From positions 4,154,001 to 4,218,000 of the forward strand of contig NZ_FNSV01000005.1 of NCBI RefSeq assembly GCF_900105905.1: a DNA stretch of 64,000 nucleotides, in the 5' to 3' direction. This DNA is from Rhodococcus koreensis. Lineage in GTDB: Bacteria; Actinomycetota; Actinomycetes; Mycobacteriales; Mycobacteriaceae. Under the pieces are notes generated by a model that saw nothing but the letters and a program-made list of their open reading frames with translations, made no database searches and was not told the origin of the DNA. Made by a program: the position numbers and the translations under genes. The first letter of the stretch is position 1, and the number at the start of each line of letters is the position of its first letter. This document shows, piece by piece, positions 46,715-54,052 of this stretch.

Positions 46715-46933
46715 GGGGTCATCCTTCCTCGGTTCGAAGGAACTCGGGTGCTCCCTCTGACCAGACGACGAAGAAAAGTAGCGAACTTCTACATCCGCGG
46801 CGAGAAACCTCCAACAGCAGGTGAAGAATGGTCGAAGAAGGCCTGCCAACCACCAACTGTTCACCATCTGGCCACTTGATCGTGAGATAACGAGCCGTAC
46901 GCACCACTACCCGCTCAGAGAAGGAATCCTGGA

Positions 46934-49900
46934 TTGTCTCTCCAGTCGCCGACGGATTCGGACCTGTCGCTCCGTATACCCCGGGAATTCCTCCGCCGTG
47001 AATTCGCACCGGCGCCGCGCACCCTCGTCGACATCCTGTTCGCGACGGCCGAGGCGAACCCCGAAGCCCCCGCGATCGACGACGGCACCACGTCGCTGAC
47101 GTACCAGGAACTGCTCGAGGAGATCCGGCAGACCGCCGACGTCCTCGCCGGATCGGGAGTCGGGGCCGGCGATCGTGTCGGAATCCGCATGCCGTCCGGA
47201 TCCTGCTCGCTCTACGTCGCCATTCTGGCGACGCTCGCCGTCGGCGCCGCGTACGTGCCGGTCGACGCGGACGACCCCGAAGAACGCGCCGAACTCGTGT
47301 TCGGCGAGGCGCAGGTGCGGTGTGTGGTGACCGGTACCGGGATCATGGCCGGCACCGCACCGGCCAGGGCCGACGCGCCGAGCGCCCGCCCGCCGACCGT
47401 CGACGACGACGCGTGGATCATCTTCACCTCCGGGTCCACCGGCACCCCCAAGGGTGTCGCGGTGAACCATCGCAACGCGGCCGCGTTCGTGGACGCCGAG
47501 GCCCGGATGTTTCTGCAGGAAGACCCGATCCGGCCCGGCGACCGGGTGCTCGCCGGACTGTCGGTGGCGTTCGACGCGTCCTGCGAGGAGATGTGGCTGG
47601 CGTGGCGTCACGGCGCCTGCCTGGTTCCCGCACCCCGGTCGCTGGTGCGCAGCGGCATGGACCTCGGCCCGTGGCTCGTCGCCCGCGACGTCAGCATCGT
47701 CTCGACGGTGCCGACCCTGGCGTCGCTGTGGCCCGCCGAGGCCCTCGAGGCCGTGCGCCTGCTGATCTTCGGCGGCGAGGCCTGCCCGCCCGAACTGGCC
47801 GAACGCCTCGCCGTCGACGGTCGCGAGGTGTGGAACACGTACGGGCCCACCGAGGCGACGGTCGTGGCCTGCGGCGCGCTGATGGACGGCCGGAGCCCGG
47901 TCAGCATCGGCCTCCCGCTGGACGGCTGGGACCTCGCCGTCGTCGACGGATCCGGCGAACCCGTACCCGAGGGCGAGGTGGGCGAACTGGTCATCGGCGG
48001 CGTCGGCCTGGCCCGGTACCTCGACCCGGCGAAGGACGCCGAGAAGTACGCCCCGATGCCGACGCTCGGCTGGGATCGGGCCTACCGGAGCGGCGACCTG
48101 GTCCGCCTCGACCGCCGCGGACTGCTGTTCCAGGGCCGCGCCGACGACCAGGTGAAACTCGGCGGCAGGCGGATCGAGCTGGGCGAGGTCGACAACGCGC
48201 TGCAGAACCTCCCCGGCGTCGGCGGCGCCGCCGCGGCCGTGCGCCGGACCGGCGCCGGTCACCAGATCCTCGTCGGCTACCTGGCCAGCACCAACCCCGA
48301 CTTCGACCTCAAGGCCGCGCACACCGCGCTCACCGGCCAGCTTCCGGCTGCGCTGGTCCCGCGGCTGGTGCTGGTCGACGAACTCCCCACCCGCACGTCG
48401 GGGAAGGTCGATCGCAACGCCCTTCCCTGGCCGCCGCCGGGCGTCGACGACGCCGCGGAGAAGCTGGGCCTCGAGGGCACACCGGCGTGGGTCGCCGAGT
48501 TGTGGACGTCGATTCTGGGCGCCGAGATCACCGGAACCGACGATGACTTCTTCGAACTCGGCGGGGGTTCCCTCTCCGCCGCCCAGCTGGTCACGGCGCT
48601 GCGCGAACGGTTCCCCGAAGTGACTGTCGCGCAACTCTACGATCATCCGCGGCTCGGTTCCCTCGCCGAATACCTCGACGAGCTGGCGCCGATCGACGCA
48701 GCCGAACCCCGCATCGTCACCCCGACTCCGCGGCGAAGCCAGCTCGCGCAGATCGCGGCCACGGTCCCGCTCACCACGCTCACCGGTCTGCAGTGGGTGA
48801 CGTGGCTGGCGATCGCGAACAACGTCTTCTCCTGGTTCACGACCGTGTCCTGGGCGCCGACGGTGTCGTGGTGGTGGATTCTGCTCGCGTTCTTCGCGTT
48901 CATCAGCCCGGTCGGCCGGATGGCGATCTCGGTGCTCGGTTCACGGATCCTGCTGCGCGGGCTCGAGCCGGGAACGTACCCCCGCGGCGGCAGCGAACAC
49001 CTGCGACTGTGGGTGGCACTGCGCCTCACCGAGGCCAGCGGCGCCGCGAACCTGTCCGGGGCCCCGTGGATGCTCTACTACGCGCGGGCGCTCGGCGCCG
49101 ACGTCGGCAAGGGCGTCGACCTGCACACACTGCCGCCCGTCACCGGCATGCTCGAACTCGGCGACGGCTGCTCCGTCGAACCGGAGGTCGACCTGTCCGG
49201 GCACTGGGTGGACGGCGACGTCGTGCACATCGGCGGGATCAAGATCGGCCCCGGCGCCTCGGTCGGCGCGCGATCGACGCTGCTGCCCGGCGCCACCATC
49301 GGACGTAACGCCGAAGTCGAGGCCGGTTCCGCCGTGTTCGGACGCGTCAAGGCAAATCAGCACTGGGCCGGTTCACCGGCGGTCAAGGTCGGCAAGGCGG
49401 TCCACCCGTGGCCGGAAGGGACCCCGCGCCGCGCGGCCTACTGGGTTCCCGCGTTCGGCGTGACGTCCATGCTCATCGCCGGACTGCCGATCTTCGCCCT
49501 CGTCGCAGGCATCGTGGTCGTCGGGTGGTGGATCCGCGACGCGGCAACGGTCGGGGCGGCCGCACTCCAGTCGCTGGTGATCCTCCCCGTCGCGACGCTC
49601 GTCAGCCTCGCCGTGTTCGCCGTCCTCACGGTCGTGTCCGTCCGGCTGCTGTCGATCAGGTTGCGCGAGGGCTACCACCCGGTCCGTAGTCGCATCGGCT
49701 GGCAGGTGTGGGCCACCGAACGGCTCATGGATTCGGCCCGCACGTTCCTGTTCCCGCTGTACGCGAGCCTGCTGACACCGGGTTGGTTGCGGTTGCTCGG
49801 CGCCCGGATCGGCAAGAACGTGGAGGCGTCGACCGTCCTCATGCTGCCGAAGTTCACGACCGTGGCGGACGGCGCGTTCCTCGCCGACGACACGATGATC

Positions 49901-50824
49901 GCGAGTTACGAACTCGGCGGCGGCTGGATGCACATCGAGCACGCGAAGGTCGGTAAGCGCGCGTTCCTCGGCAACTCCGGGATGACCGGCCCGGGTAGGC
50001 GGGTTCCCAAGAACGGTCTCGTCGCCGTGCTGTCGGCCACGCCGTCGAAGGCGAAATCCGGTTCCTCCTGGCTGGGCAGTCCGCCTGTCCGCCTCCGCCG
50101 GGCGCCCGGCGACACCGACGCCTCCCGCACGTTCCGTCCGCCGTTCCGGCTCAAGGTCGCTCGTGCCGTCGTCGAAACGTGCCGTCTCCTTCCCGTGATG
50201 GTGACGTTCGGGATCGGGCTCGGCGTGCTGTTCGCGGTGGAGGTGATGGCCGGCCGCGTCGGTTTCTGGCTCGCGGCGCTGGCCAGCGGGCTCGTGCTCC
50301 TCATCGCGGGTGCGGCCGCCGGACTGATCTCCGTCATCGCGAAGTGGCTGGTGGTGGGTCGGATCGGCAAGATCGAACACCCGCTGTGGAGTTCGTTCGT
50401 GTGGCGGAACGAGGTGTCGGACGCGTTCGTGGAGACCGTCGCCGCACCCTGGTTCGCGCGCGCCGCCACCGGCACCGCAGTGCTGAACGTCTGGTTGCGC
50501 GGCCTCGGCGCCACCATCGGCAAGGGGGTGTGGTGTGAAACCTACTGGCTCCCCGAGGCCGATCTCGTGACGCTGGGCGACGGGGCGACCGTGGAACGGG
50601 GGTGCGTGGTGCAGACTCACCTGTTCCATGATCGGATCATGTCCATGGACACCGTCATCCTCGGAGCCGGAGCCACCCTCGGGCCGCACTGTGTCGCGCT
50701 GCCCGCCGCCCGGATCGGCGAAGGCGGCACGGTCGGACCGGCCTCCCTCGTCATGCGCGGCGACTCCGTGCCGCCGTCCACGCGGTGGCAGGGGAACCCG
50801 ATCGCCCCCTGGGCGGCCACGTGA
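46934..50824 (+). CDS. Pls/PosA-family membrane non-ribosomal peptide synthetase
   Basis: A 1296-residue single-module NRPS. The adenylation domain (about 30-510) has A3 FTSGSTGTPKGV, A5 NTYGPTEATV and A10 RTSGKVDRN. The carrier domain has S546 in LGGGSL. Six membrane helices then alternate with three soluble hexapeptide-like domains, the architecture of epsilon-poly-L-lysine synthetase, which has no condensation or thioesterase domain. My manual reading of the specificity code is D-A-E-S-I-G-T-V-V-K, close to lysine-type codes. TTG 46934 follows AAGGA. Its stop overlaps the M1 peptidase start (GTGA). Confidence 0.88.
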   Translation: MSLQSPTDSDLSLRIPREFLRREFAPAPRTLVDILFATAEANPEAPAIDDGTTSLTYQELLEEIRQTADVLAGSGVGAGDRVGIRMPSGSCSLYVAILATLAVGAAYVPVDADDPEERAELVFGEAQVRCVVTGTGIMAGTAPARADAPSARPPTVDDDAWIIFTSGSTGTPKGVAVNHRNAAAFVDAEARMFLQEDPIRPGDRVLAGLSVAFDASCEEMWLAWRHGACLVPAPRSLVRSGMDLGPWLVARDVSIVSTVPTLASLWPAEALEAVRLLIFGGEACPPELAERLAVDGREVWNTYGPTEATVVACGALMDGRSPVSIGLPLDGWDLAVVDGSGEPVPEGEVGELVIGGVGLARYLDPAKDAEKYAPMPTLGWDRAYRSGDLVRLDRRGLLFQGRADDQVKLGGRRIELGEVDNALQNLPGVGGAAAAVRRTGAGHQILVGYLASTNPDFDLKAAHTALTGQLPAALVPRLVLVDELPTRTSGKVDRNALPWPPPGVDDAAEKLGLEGTPAWVAELWTSILGAEITGTDDDFFELGGGSLSAAQLVTALRERFPEVTVAQLYDHPRLGSLAEYLDELAPIDAAEPRIVTPTPRRSQLAQIAATVPLTTLTGLQWVTWLAIANNVFSWFTTVSWAPTVSWWWILLAFFAFISPVGRMAISVLGSRILLRGLEPGTYPRGGSEHLRLWVALRLTEASGAANLSGAPWMLYYARALGADVGKGVDLHTLPPVTGMLELGDGCSVEPEVDLSGHWVDGDVVHIGGIKIGPGASVGARSTLLPGATIGRNAEVEAGSAVFGRVKANQHWAGSPAVKVGKAVHPWPEGTPRRAAYWVPAFGVTSMLIAGLPIFALVAGIVVVGWWIRDAATVGAAALQSLVILPVATLVSLAVFAVLTVVSVRLLSIRLREGYHPVRSRIGWQVWATERLMDSARTFLFPLYASLLTPGWLRLLGARIGKNVEASTVLMLPKFTTVADGAFLADDTMIASYELGGGWMHIEHAKVGKRAFLGNSGMTGPGRRVPKNGLVAVLSATPSKAKSGSSWLGSPPVRLRRAPGDTDASRTFRPPFRLKVARAVVETCRLLPVMVTFGIGLGVLFAVEVMAGRVGFWLAALASGLVLLIAGAAAGLISVIAKWLVVGRIGKIEHPLWSSFVWRNEVSDAFVETVAAPWFARAATGTAVLNVWLRGLGATIGKGVWCETYWLPEADLVTLGDGATVERGCVVQTHLFHDRIMSMDTVILGAGATLGPHCVALPAARIGEGGTVGPASLVMRGDSVPPSTRWQGNPIAPWAAT

Positions 50825-52137
50825 AGTCCGACAAGGGGATGGACGAGCCGGTCGACCCGTACCTCCCCCAAAACGGCAACCGTGGATACCGGGTGTCCCG
50901 GTACGAACTCGACCTCACCTACAAGGTCCACAGCAACCGGCTGACGGGCAAGGCCACGATCACCGCGGTCACGACCGCGGTACGTTCCCGGTTCGCCCTG
51001 GACCTGGCGGCCGGCATGCACGTCACGAAGGTCGCGGCCAACGGTTCCCGCAACACGAAGTGGCTGCACCGCAACGGCAAGCTGATCATCACGCCCGCGC
51101 AGAAGATCCCCCCGGGCGGCGCTCTCGTGCTCACCATCCAGTACGGGGGTTCGCCGAAACCGATCCGCAGCATGTGGGGTGAGGTCGGGTGGGAGGAATT
51201 GTCCGAGGGCGCCCTCGTCGCCAGTCAGCCCAACGGGGCGGCGTCCTGGTTCCCGTGCGACGACCATCCCAGCTCGAAAGCCAGCTACCGCATCGCGATC
51301 ACGACCGATTCGCCGTACTACACGGTGGCCAACGGCGCGCTGGTGAGCAAACAGACCCGGGCCAGTCAGACGACGTGGGTGTACGAGCAGACCGAGCCGA
51401 TGCCGAGTTACCTCGCCACCATCCAAATCGGGCCGTACGAGCGCCGCAGGTTCGGTTCCGGTGGTGTTCCCATGTTCGCCGTCCACCCGCCGCGGCTACG
51501 AGCGTCGTTCGACGTGGACTTCGGCCGACAGCCCCAGATGATGGACGTGTTCTCCCGGTTGTTCGGCCCCTACCCGTTCGCCGACTACACGGTGGTCGTG
51601 ACGGACGACGAGTTGGAGATCCCGCTCGAGGCGCAGGGACTGTCCATCTTCGGCGCCAACCATTGCACCGGCAGGCGCTGGGCCGAGCGTCTGGTGGCGC
51701 ACGAACTGGCCCACCAATGGTTCGGCAACAGCCTGACGCTCGGCCAGTGGCGGGACATCTGGTTGCACGAAGGCTTCGCCTGTTACGCCGAGTGGATCTG
51801 GTCGGAGAATTCCGGTGGACATTCGGCGCACCAACTCGCCCTGCAGGCGCATCAGGGCCTGGCCCGTAAACCACAGGACCTGATGATCGCCGATCCGGGA
51901 CCGCAGCTGATGTTCGACGACCGCGTCTACAAGCGCGGCGCGCTCACGCTCCACGCGCTGCGGCGCCGGCTCGGCGACGACAAGTTCTTCGCGTTGCTGC
52001 GCGAGTGGACCCTGGCCCATCGCCACTCCACCGTCACGAGCGAGCAGTTCACCGACCTGGCCGCCCACTACACCGACGAATCGCTGCGCCTGCTGTGGGA
52101 TTCGTGGCTCGGGGAGAAGACGCTGCCGTCGATGTGA
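50821..52137 (+). CDS. M1-family (aminopeptidase N-like) metallopeptidase
   Basis: A 438-residue zinc peptidase. VAHELAHQWFGN gives the HExxH, and LHEGFACYAEW the distal Glu ligand; a beta-rich N-terminal domain precedes it. It lacks the C-terminal helical domain of full aminopeptidase N and has no signal peptide. Translational coupling to the NRPS suggests it processes, recycles or protects against that product. GTG 50821 is the coupled start. Confidence 0.9.
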   Translation: MKSDKGMDEPVDPYLPQNGNRGYRVSRYELDLTYKVHSNRLTGKATITAVTTAVRSRFALDLAAGMHVTKVAANGSRNTKWLHRNGKLIITPAQKIPPGGALVLTIQYGGSPKPIRSMWGEVGWEELSEGALVASQPNGAASWFPCDDHPSSKASYRIAITTDSPYYTVANGALVSKQTRASQTTWVYEQTEPMPSYLATIQIGPYERRRFGSGGVPMFAVHPPRLRASFDVDFGRQPQMMDVFSRLFGPYPFADYTVVVTDDELEIPLEAQGLSIFGANHCTGRRWAERLVAHELAHQWFGNSLTLGQWRDIWLHEGFACYAEWIWSENSGGHSAHQLALQAHQGLARKPQDLMIADPGPQLMFDDRVYKRGALTLHALRRRLGDDKFFALLREWTLAHRHSTVTSEQFTDLAAHYTDESLRLLWDSWLGEKTLPSM

Positions 52138-53402
52138 TCTGACGCCGCTTCCGAATTCGGCAGGTGCGCGCGCCACTTCGTGAGGGCGAGCGCGAGGCAG
52201 CCGACGGCCGCGACCGCCCCGAACACGAACATTCTCGGGTACGTCACCGCCGGGAACGTCTCGGACAGGTACGCCATCCCGACGGGTGTCCCGAACCCCA
52301 GATACGTCAGCGAGTAGAAGACGGCGGTCAGTCCGGCGAGGTCGTCCGGACCCGCGATCCGCTGGATCTCCTGCAGTCCCGACACCATCGCCATGCCGTA
52401 TCCGCAGCCGAGCACGACGGCCGCGGCGAGCGCGAGCGGGACGGTCAGCGCGGACGCCGCAATCACCGCGACACCCATTCCGGCGACGACGACAACGAGC
52501 GAGACCACGACGGCCCGCGCGTTCCGGGGAGTGTCGATCTTGCGGCCGAGAGCCTGGATGGCGAAACCCGCCCCGAGGCCGACCATGCACATGAGCGCGG
52601 AGAACGCGAGCGGCAGCCCACCGGTGTTCCGGGACATCAGCGACGGGAGCACCGCGTAGGCGGCGGCCGCCGTGCCGAACACCCACGGCGCGAGCGGCAC
52701 GATCACGAACAGGAACCGCTTGTGCGCGGCGGACGGGATCGCGAGGTCGCGGGCGAGGGGGACTCGTTCGGAGACGGGCTGGGCCGCGCGGGTCTCGGGG
52801 GCCCGCCACAGCGCGACGGCTGCGGCGACGGCGATCGCACTGTGCACGGCGTAGGACAGGACGCTCGGCAGCGGCGCCCACTGCGCGAGAACACCGGCGA
52901 CACCGGCACCCAGGCCGAACCCACCCGTCAGGCTCATCGCGGCCCGCCGCGCACCCGCACCGTCCGCGGCCGCGGGATCCCACGGCGGGGTCGACAACTC
53001 CTTCACCCAGCTGCCGCCGACGGCCATGCCGAGGCCGAGCGCGACGCCGCACAGGACGCGGCCGACGATGAGCATCGCCGCGGAGTCGGCGCCGAGGGCC
53101 AGGAGTGCGGAGCCGGCGACCGTCAGGAACGGCGCGGGGAGCAGGATCGGCCGTCGTCCCAGCCGGTCGGACAGTGGTCCGCCGAGGAGCAGGGCGGGCA
53201 CGATCCCGACGACGTAGGCGAACAGGAACAGGTCGACCGTGACCGGTGAGAATCCGTGATCGGCGCGGTACATCCCGAGCAGCGGCGTGAACTCGTTGCC
53301 ACCCCAGGCGACGGCGAACATGGTCGCGGCCACCAGCATCCAGGCGCGCGGCGACGCGAGGGCCTGCGGCATCTCCGTCGGGTATTCGCGGACGGCGGTC
53401 AT
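52068..53402 (-). CDS. MFS transporter (DHA1-type)
   Basis: A 444-residue 12-TMS permease with GGPLSDRLGRRPIL (motif A) and a second-half IQALGRKIDTPRN loop. The polar C-terminal tail of about 25 residues overlaps the convergent M1 peptidase gene by 70 bp. ATG overlaps the GntR stop (ATGA), so it belongs to the catabolic operon and may import the substrate or export an intermediate. Confidence 0.88.
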   Translation of the reverse strand: MTAVREYPTEMPQALASPRAWMLVAATMFAVAWGGNEFTPLLGMYRADHGFSPVTVDLFLFAYVVGIVPALLLGGPLSDRLGRRPILLPAPFLTVAGSALLALGADSAAMLIVGRVLCGVALGLGMAVGGSWVKELSTPPWDPAAADGAGARRAAMSLTGGFGLGAGVAGVLAQWAPLPSVLSYAVHSAIAVAAAVALWRAPETRAAQPVSERVPLARDLAIPSAAHKRFLFVIVPLAPWVFGTAAAAYAVLPSLMSRNTGGLPLAFSALMCMVGLGAGFAIQALGRKIDTPRNARAVVVSLVVVVAGMGVAVIAASALTVPLALAAAVVLGCGYGMAMVSGLQEIQRIAGPDDLAGLTAVFYSLTYLGFGTPVGMAYLSETFPAVTYPRMFVFGAVAAVGCLALALTKWRAHLPNSEAASDHIDGSVFSPSHESHSRRSDSSV

Positions 53403-54052
53403 CGCGCAACTCCTCTCGGGTTGAGGGCGTGGACCTGGCGCATGTGGACGAGCACCGCGGCGTCGAAGCCGGCGGCGTCACCGGCCTCGACGAGTTCCGT
53501 CAGCTGTTCGTGGTCGGCGATGATCCTGGGCAGCTGTCCCGGGTCGCGGGTGATGGAGTGTGTCGTCATCCGGCGCTGGCGCTCGCGGATGCTGGAGTAG
53601 AACGTCGCGAGCAGCGGGTTCTCGCCCGCCTCGACGATCATCCGGTGGAAGTCGGCGTCGGCGGCGCTGAAGGCCGCGACGTCGCCTCGTGCGGCGATCT
53701 CGCGCTGCTCCGCGAGGTTCTCGCGCAGGCGGGCGACGAGGAGTTGGCGGGCGTGCGGCTGATCGGCGAGCACCCGGACGCTGTGTGTCTCGACGAGTTG
53801 GCGGGCGTCGACCACGTGTTCCGCCTCGCCGTCCGCGACGGGCACGACGAGCGCGCCCCGCTTCGGGTACAGCCGCATCCAGCCCTCGGCCTCGAGCCGG
53901 AGGAAGGCCTCGCGCACCGGGGTGCGGCTGAGCCCCATCCGTCCGGCGATCTCGCCCTCGCTGATCAGCTCACCGCCGGGCAGGCCGCCCGACAGGATGA
54001 GTTCCTTGACCTCGCGATAGGCCTGCTCCGCGGCGGAATACAACATAGACAC
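53399..54052 (-). CDS. GntR/FadR-family regulator (FCD domain)
   Basis: A 217-residue regulator: winged HTH (about 10-70, ISEGEIAGRMGLSRTPVREA) and helical FCD ligand domain (about 85-205, with metal-ligand-type His in DADFHRMI). A TATAAA box lies about 10 bases before GTG 54052, with no close ribosome site, so this gene probably has its own leaderless promoter inside the gene cluster; ATG 54046 is an alternative start. It is followed by the MFS gene. Confidence 0.88.
   Translation of the reverse strand: MSMLYSAAEQAYREVKELILSGGLPGGELISEGEIAGRMGLSRTPVREAFLRLEAEGWMRLYPKRGALVVPVADGEAEHVVDARQLVETHSVRVLADQPHARQLLVARLRENLAEQREIAARGDVAAFSAADADFHRMIVEAGENPLLATFYSSIRERQRRMTTHSITRDPGQLPRIIADHEQLTELVEAGDAAGFDAAVLVHMRQVHALNPRGVAR

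Follow-up and report, generated by a model that had tools for sequence, protein, structure and literature searches.

The synthetase and peptidase genes

Positions 46934-52137 of a 64,000-nucleotide stretch of the Rhodococcus koreensis genome (the whole stretch is referred to as the window) contain two overlapping genes on the + strand. The first encodes a nonribosomal peptide synthetase (NRPS) resembling epsilon-poly-L-lysine synthetase (Pls), which assembles lysines into the short antimicrobial polymer epsilon-polylysine; the second encodes an M1 zinc peptidase resembling PldII of Streptomyces albulus. Both had been pointed out in a preliminary description of the window. The pair is very probably an epsilon-poly-L-lysine synthetase and a PldII-like M1 peptidase encoded in a translationally coupled operon.

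The pls-like synthetase gene (46934-50824, + strand) has a TTG start codon and encodes 1296 amino acids, comprising an adenylation (A) domain, a thiolation (T) domain and three C domains with six membrane helices. It is 96% identical to a relative in R. opacus (locus L202). A ribosome-binding-like GAAGGA (46920-46925, + strand) can be read in the sequence and ends 8 nt 5' of the TTG; GAAGGA is also found ahead of the R. opacus gene. The adenylation domain (46979-48442, + strand; residues 16-503) includes a Pfam AMP-binding match at residues 37-361. It is followed by the thiolation, or carrier, domain (48488-48676, + strand; residues 519-581; PF00550, 53.8 bits). Residues 605-1290 match the 'Pls/PosA family NRPS' model TIGR02353 with 742 bits, against a cut-off of 423.1. 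The synthetase thus has the A-T order and the TIGR02353 C-terminal region by which Pls is recognised here. It contains no classical condensation or thioesterase domain; Pfam at an E-value of 0.001 gives solely AMP-binding, PP-binding and hexapeptide models. Among proteins of solved structure, the closest in sequence is the A domain of an epsilon-poly-L-lysine synthase (PDB 7WEW, 630 bits), which is presumably from S. albulus. The first gene is a full-length Pls-family synthetase with adenylation, carrier and membrane regions.

The Pls-type C-terminal region (48746-50803, + strand) was modelled with AlphaFold2 using residues 592-1296 and 48 sequences. The model (pLDDT 89.5, pTM 0.90) has three pairs of long helices, with a left-handed beta-helix domain after each pair; read off the model, these domains lie at about residues 721-826, 956-1051 and 1191-1296. 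A hydropathy scan picks five of the six model helices, missing the first, and also marks two stretches outside them (86-113 and 1241-1259). The best Foldseek matches of the region in the PDB are hexapeptide acyltransferases, with E-values from 6e-6. Query-normalised TM-scores among the 50 matches listed are at most 0.17, so that the matches cover about one domain. A profile search agrees with Foldseek in relating the region to hexapeptide acyltransferases. In the model, six membrane helices separate three predicted acyltransferase-like domains, as in Pls. The beta-helix model and the hexapeptide acyltransferase matches fit the statement that C1-C3 are related to acetyltransferases (Jiang et al. 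2021, PMC8117764; this and all other papers are cited from excerpts). The QTHLFHDR stretch of the third C domain is conserved and may hold a predicted catalytic His; the second His of the stretch is not strictly invariant. The A-T-six-helix architecture proposed in the preliminary description is thus borne out by the TIGR02353 score, the three helix pairs of the model and the hydropathy scan.

The peptidase gene (50821-52137, + strand) has a GTG start codon and encodes 438 amino acids with matches to PF01433 and PF17900 (Peptidase_M1, 94 bits; M1_N, 62 bits). The zinc-binding motif HELAH (51700-51714, + strand), located by sequence and alignment, is part of a HELAH-(18)-E arrangement. Residues E270, H294, E295, H298, E317 and Y370, numbered from the GTG at 50821, are invariant in all 121 aligned M1 proteins. 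The protein thus has features expected of a PldII-type enzyme: it is an M1 peptidase with HExxH-E and the catalytic Tyr (Y370), encoded directly 3' of pls.

The M1 identity and the overlap had both been recognised before; what changes is the start codon. The start originally listed, at 50785, would give a 40-nt overlap and was dropped in favour of GTG 50821, which restores the 4-nt overlap of S. albulus-type and R. opacus loci. Here the sequence GTGA is shared with the pls stop, as it is in R. opacus (L202), and the M1 gene probably begins at this GTG. An equivalent 4-nt overlap is present in the Streptomyces relatives L151 and L152, termed S. albulus-type on account of the 92% and 78% identity between their A domains and 7WEW. 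The published pls-pldII genes of S. albulus also overlap by 4 bp (PMC4361855).

The M1 protein of the window begins with VKSDKGMDEPVDPYLP, where the best 12-residue hydropathy is -0.88. Neither a hydrophobic nor a twin-arginine N-terminus is found in it by sequence or hydropathy. In contrast, the M1 proteins of L151 and L152 start with TRC[ST]RRAL[LI]RGAAL[LV]PLAATAAD, a twin-arginine-like leader, and their N-terminal hydropathies (1.64 and 1.73) are the top two of the 121. The contrast in export is drawn from this rank, from the arginine pairs and from the literature on PldII, which in S. albulus is reported to lie outside the membrane, to be protective and to degrade epsilon-polylysine (PMC9223678). 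Since no export signal is seen on the Rhodococcus M1, cytoplasmic action is predicted, and the enzyme probably acts inside the cell.

Adenylation code, distribution and gene tree

The specificity code of the A domain was re-derived by alignment; the register of the ten code positions on the motifs (relative to PheA) is taken here as an assumption. Residues 214, 215, 218, 257, 278, 280, 302, 310, 311 and 491 spell D A E S I G T V V K, in full agreement with the earlier reading by hand. All ten are identical in 7WEW, and the A domains are 64% identical. As judged from this alignment, the synthetase carries a lysine-type code.

DAESIGTVVK is present at 52 of 60 loci hand-chosen from the listed matches, which cover 18 of the 31 genera of the family as well as other families. 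The eight exceptions are three divergent paralogues with DFEYLGTVTK, one altered copy with DCRSIGTVVK, whose match does not start until residue 218, an unrelated A domain (L125) and three loci lacking a usable A domain (L126, L133 and L150). A second set consists of 80 species-named loci and is biased, as these are the best of 595 matches to 7WEW; all 78 tested have DAESIGTVVK, two partial loci (L208 and L227) being left out. An M1 gene on the strand of pls is present in the retrieved stretch at 46 of the 52 canonical-code loci, in some of them with other sequence between the two genes. The six without it are a paralogue (L092) and five loci of a Corynebacterium-type genus, a label which rests on grouping with Corynebacterium curieae (L211) in the gene tree. 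An M1 gene is present at 74 of the 80 species-named loci, and in 71 the match starts at most 250 nt from the pls stop; two of the six loci without it (L153 and L208) run off their contigs within pls.

TIGR02353 is matched over its cut-off in all 28 genomes of the window's genus, in 275 of 301 genomes of the family, and in 24 of 396 genomes sampled evenly over the phylum (25 if every match at E 1e-80 is counted). One of 14 named control genomes, Corynebacterium glutamicum, is also over the cut-off. Within the family, 274 genomes have both pls and M1, 23 have neither, three have M1 only and one has pls only (G236, 87% complete). The M1-only genomes are G052, G240 (75% complete) and G280 (weak match). 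G052 is the clearest exception to co-occurrence, with a strong M1 match (E 1.5e-154) and no Pls match. The 121 genomes of the Corynebacterium-type genus divide into 87 with both genes, 29 with neither, four with pls only and one with M1 only (G747, 77% complete). Those with pls only are G684 and G706 (a divergent pls alone), G761 (77% complete) and G768 (a broken gene).

The two genes are within 15 kb of each other in just four of the 85 Corynebacterium-type genomes that have an M1 gene and a pls match of at least 650 bits. In 48 of the remaining 81 they share a contig but are separated by 87.9 kb or more, and in 33 they are on different contigs (distance to contig ends not considered). In the phylum sample, each of the 22 genomes with a full-length pls frame has an M1 of at least 47% identity. 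The other 374 genomes include three where a Pls-type match is short or partial, and none of the 374 has an M1 match at E 1e-40 above 40% identity; weaker M1 relatives do exist in genomes without pls. These counts suggest that the pls and M1 genes are gained and lost together even where they are unlinked, and co-occurrence without linkage speaks for the peptidase as a genuine partner of pls. Fisher values calculated for the counts take no account of relatedness and are not relied on. Neither the unlinked co-occurrence nor the missing M1 export signal was met in the excerpts of related literature; no search was aimed at these points, and they are not claimed to be unpublished.

In the gene tree, the Pls of the window, of R. 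opacus and of three more genomes of the genus form a group of five with support 1.0, apart from the S. albulus-type clade (support 0.98). Judged by eye, the tree broadly tracks taxonomy, with exceptions. Rhodococcus is not one group, as R. rhodnii (L199) stands apart, and Streptomyces sequences occur in several places. With eight sequences added (L241-L248), the Corynebacterium-type Pls are not one clade; the smallest clade enclosing them includes most other mycolic-acid genera and several Micrococcales, and the smallest clade of all mycolic-acid genera also includes Arthrobacter, Microbacterium and others. Transfer between lineages is therefore possible. Phylogenetic bracketing by C. variabile, as a proven maker in the clade of the window, was not used because the C. 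variabile gene was not identified among the loci and the Corynebacterium-type sequences are not one clade.

Neighbouring genes and further copies

A putative MFS transporter is encoded at 52068-53402 (- strand), convergent with the pair, and adjoins the gene for a putative GntR regulator (53399-54052, - strand). Relatives of the MFS gene occur near pls at 19 of 140 loci. Seven of these loci bear names, all of them Rhodococcus or Prescottella. The distance downstream of the pls stop is 1.2-1.4 kb at 13 loci (directly 3' of M1), 2.9 kb at two and 4.4-5.0 kb at four. The GntR gene has matches at 16 of the 140 loci and is in the same arrangement at 15; L209 does not fit. The two genes (52068-54052) are kept convergent to the pls-M1 pair in Rhodococcus-like loci. 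Five other neighbours were considered as biosynthetic partners: genes for agmatine deiminase, a sigma factor, YCII, Rid and gamma-glutamyltransferase. They are left out of the unit because their relatives are rare near pls (just 2 to 5 of 140 loci).

The match described here is the one TIGR02353 match over cut-off in the window's genome. The same genome contains three short TIGR02353 matches in pieces (G000:C3:1373918-1374295), which suggest the remains of another Pls-like gene. It also has very large NRPS genes, seen as several open frames of 8,361 to 11,285 codons with adenylation domains on C3 and C8. Some members of the window's genus have a second, divergent Pls-family gene (L093, L136, L137 and G023:C185), about 33% identical and scoring 577-585 bits. 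In L093, L136 and L137 this gene has the code DFEYLGTVTK, and no M1 neighbour is present in these three stretches. L092 and L135 are extra Pls copies in large genomes of the genus. The former has the lysine code and no M1 alongside; the latter has the code DCRSIGTVVK, and the window protein is matched only from residue 218. In the Corynebacterium-type genus, L241-L243 have a Pls with a directly adjacent, divergent M1 (40-41% identical). L247 and L248, from G684 and G706, encode a divergent Pls (46% identical) with the codes DAESIGTIIK and DAESIGTVIK, and these two genomes have no M1 match at E 1e-50.

Known systems and interpretation

Pls homologues and the pls-peptidase operon are already known. 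Jiang et al. 2021 (PMC8117764) name Rhodococcus as a genus with Pls homologues and also describe the pls-peptidase operon, and an epsilon-polylysine NAPAA cluster is given at 100% in all five R. erythropolis strains compared (PMC10819586). The novelty for rhodococci implied by the preliminary description does not hold. NAPAA also appears in a figure legend of Rhodococcus gene clusters (PMC12671745), and R. erythropolis NRPS/PKS genes like those of epsilon-polylysine producers are mentioned elsewhere (PMC12915292). In Nocardia, a poly-lysine synthetase common to seven strains was predicted (line 2 clusters; Komaki et al. 2014, PMC4035055); Pls proteins of named Nocardia are 72-75% identical to that of the window, and the excerpts show no product for the Nocardia enzyme. 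The NRPS-1 family of Rhodococcus and Mycobacterium (Ceniceros et al. 2017, PMC5550956) has one A-carrier module and an MFS gene, for which a role in self-resistance was suggested. It is found in all strains except pathogenic mycobacteria, and its substrate is not assigned there. Given the MFS and GntR arrangement near pls, this orphan family is probably the pls locus described here; the identification is our own.

The pair resembles S. albulus Pls-PldII in architecture, the ten code residues, gene order, the 4-nt overlap and M1 family, as compared through the proxies L151 and L152 and, for the A domain, 7WEW. Pls and PldII are functional in S. albulus (PMC4361855, PMC9223678). Coryneform Pls is likewise of the Pls family and has a reported lysine-type pocket, and C. 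variabile Pls yields epsilon-polylysine in S. coelicolor (PMC8117764); it differs in that 81 of 85 Corynebacterium-type genomes lack an M1 gene on the pls contig within 15 kb of pls. The lysine-type reading of the code, the Pls architecture and the trimming or self-protective role proposed for the peptidase are all in agreement with the present tests and with what is published on S. albulus pls-pldII and C. variabile pls.

What is observed directly is the architecture, the identical code, a full set of active-site residues, the 4-nt overlap and the close co-occurrence of the genes. The substrate, linkage, product, and peptidase target and location of the Rhodococcus pair are proposed by analogy with relatives. 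The A domain would activate L-lysine, which the carrier would hold as a thioester. The three membrane-embedded acyltransferase-like C domains would then link the epsilon-amine of each lysine to the carboxyl group of the following one, and the product would be a short cationic isopeptide. The M1 peptidase would degrade the isopeptide to lysine, serving self-protection, control of chain length or recycling; in Rhodococcus this cleavage would most likely be cytoplasmic, as no export signal is seen.

A Pls-family enzyme could also polymerise another diamino acid, such as ornithine, diaminobutyrate or diaminopropionate. Relatives with the Pls architecture make such polymers (PMC8117764), and code rules do not prove a substrate. 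However, these other three synthetases have pockets that differ substantially from that of Pls and are 31-33% identical to C. variabile Pls (PMC8117764), whereas the ten code residues of the window are those of 7WEW. A transaminase or aspartate kinase gene, as named in the gene-context legend of PMC8117764, is not evident by eye among the open reading frames of the window, although neither was searched for. Another diamino acid is thus very unlikely. It is also unlikely that the M1 protein is a general aminopeptidase which merely lies beside pls. Genomes that lack a full-length pls do contain M1 relatives, at 40% identity or less, and two distant ones (28-29% identity) are present in the window's own genome; but the closer M1 family tracks pls even if unlinked, and the S. 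albulus counterpart degrades epsilon-polylysine (PMC9223678).

A lysine oligomer may be kept in or on the cell, as an envelope cation, a partner of polyphosphate or nucleic acid, or a nitrogen store, and recycled by a cytosolic M1 rather than secreted as an antibiotic. The presence of the synthetase family in 28/28 genomes of the genus and 275/301 of the family is consistent with this, as are a gene tree that broadly follows taxonomy by eye, with exceptions, and a peptidase on which no export signal is seen. Conservation alone names no role, however, and PMC8117764 describes Pls as both making and excreting its product. The MFS neighbour in Rhodococcus-like loci could also mean export or resistance, as with the self-resistance suggested for NRPS-1 (PMC5550956). 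Retention in the cell can be entertained, but it is doubtful.

Several observations count against an epsilon-poly-L-lysine synthetase with a PldII-like peptidase. The window Pls is about 55% identical to that of L151 and lies in a different clade. Between the M1 proteins of the window and of L151 the identity is only 42%, and the former has no twin-arginine-like start, so the two may act on different substrates or in different places. The GAMEN-type motif, a feature of M1 aminopeptidases, reads IPLEAQ in the window M1, and of its counted positions E270 alone is invariant. The hydropathy cut-off of 1.8 preset for an export-type N-terminus is reached by no M1 protein among the 121, not even those of L151 and L152. 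The co-occurrence counts ignore relatedness and have exceptions, most clearly G052. C. variabile itself produced no epsilon-polylysine in culture, and its Pls gave none in C. glutamicum (PMC8117764). The excerpts of the literature hold no product report for any Rhodococcus.

Read as an epsilon-poly-L-lysine synthetase and its peptidase, the pair is ordinary for its genus, and code and family membership let this function be predicted with good confidence. A locus with a match in all sampled genomes of the genus thereby receives a precise chemical prediction, epsilon-polylysine, which probably also applies to the orphan NRPS family known from rhodococci and mycobacteria. With no export signal seen on the peptidase, the site of polymer turnover becomes a testable point on which the pair may differ from its Streptomyces counterpart. 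More tentatively, Pls and M1 may be a core physiological module of mycolic-acid bacteria and not a niche antibiotic system; lysine isopeptides would form at the membrane and be broken down in the cytoplasm by an M1 without an export signal, and the two genes would be retained or lost jointly even where they are distant on the chromosome.

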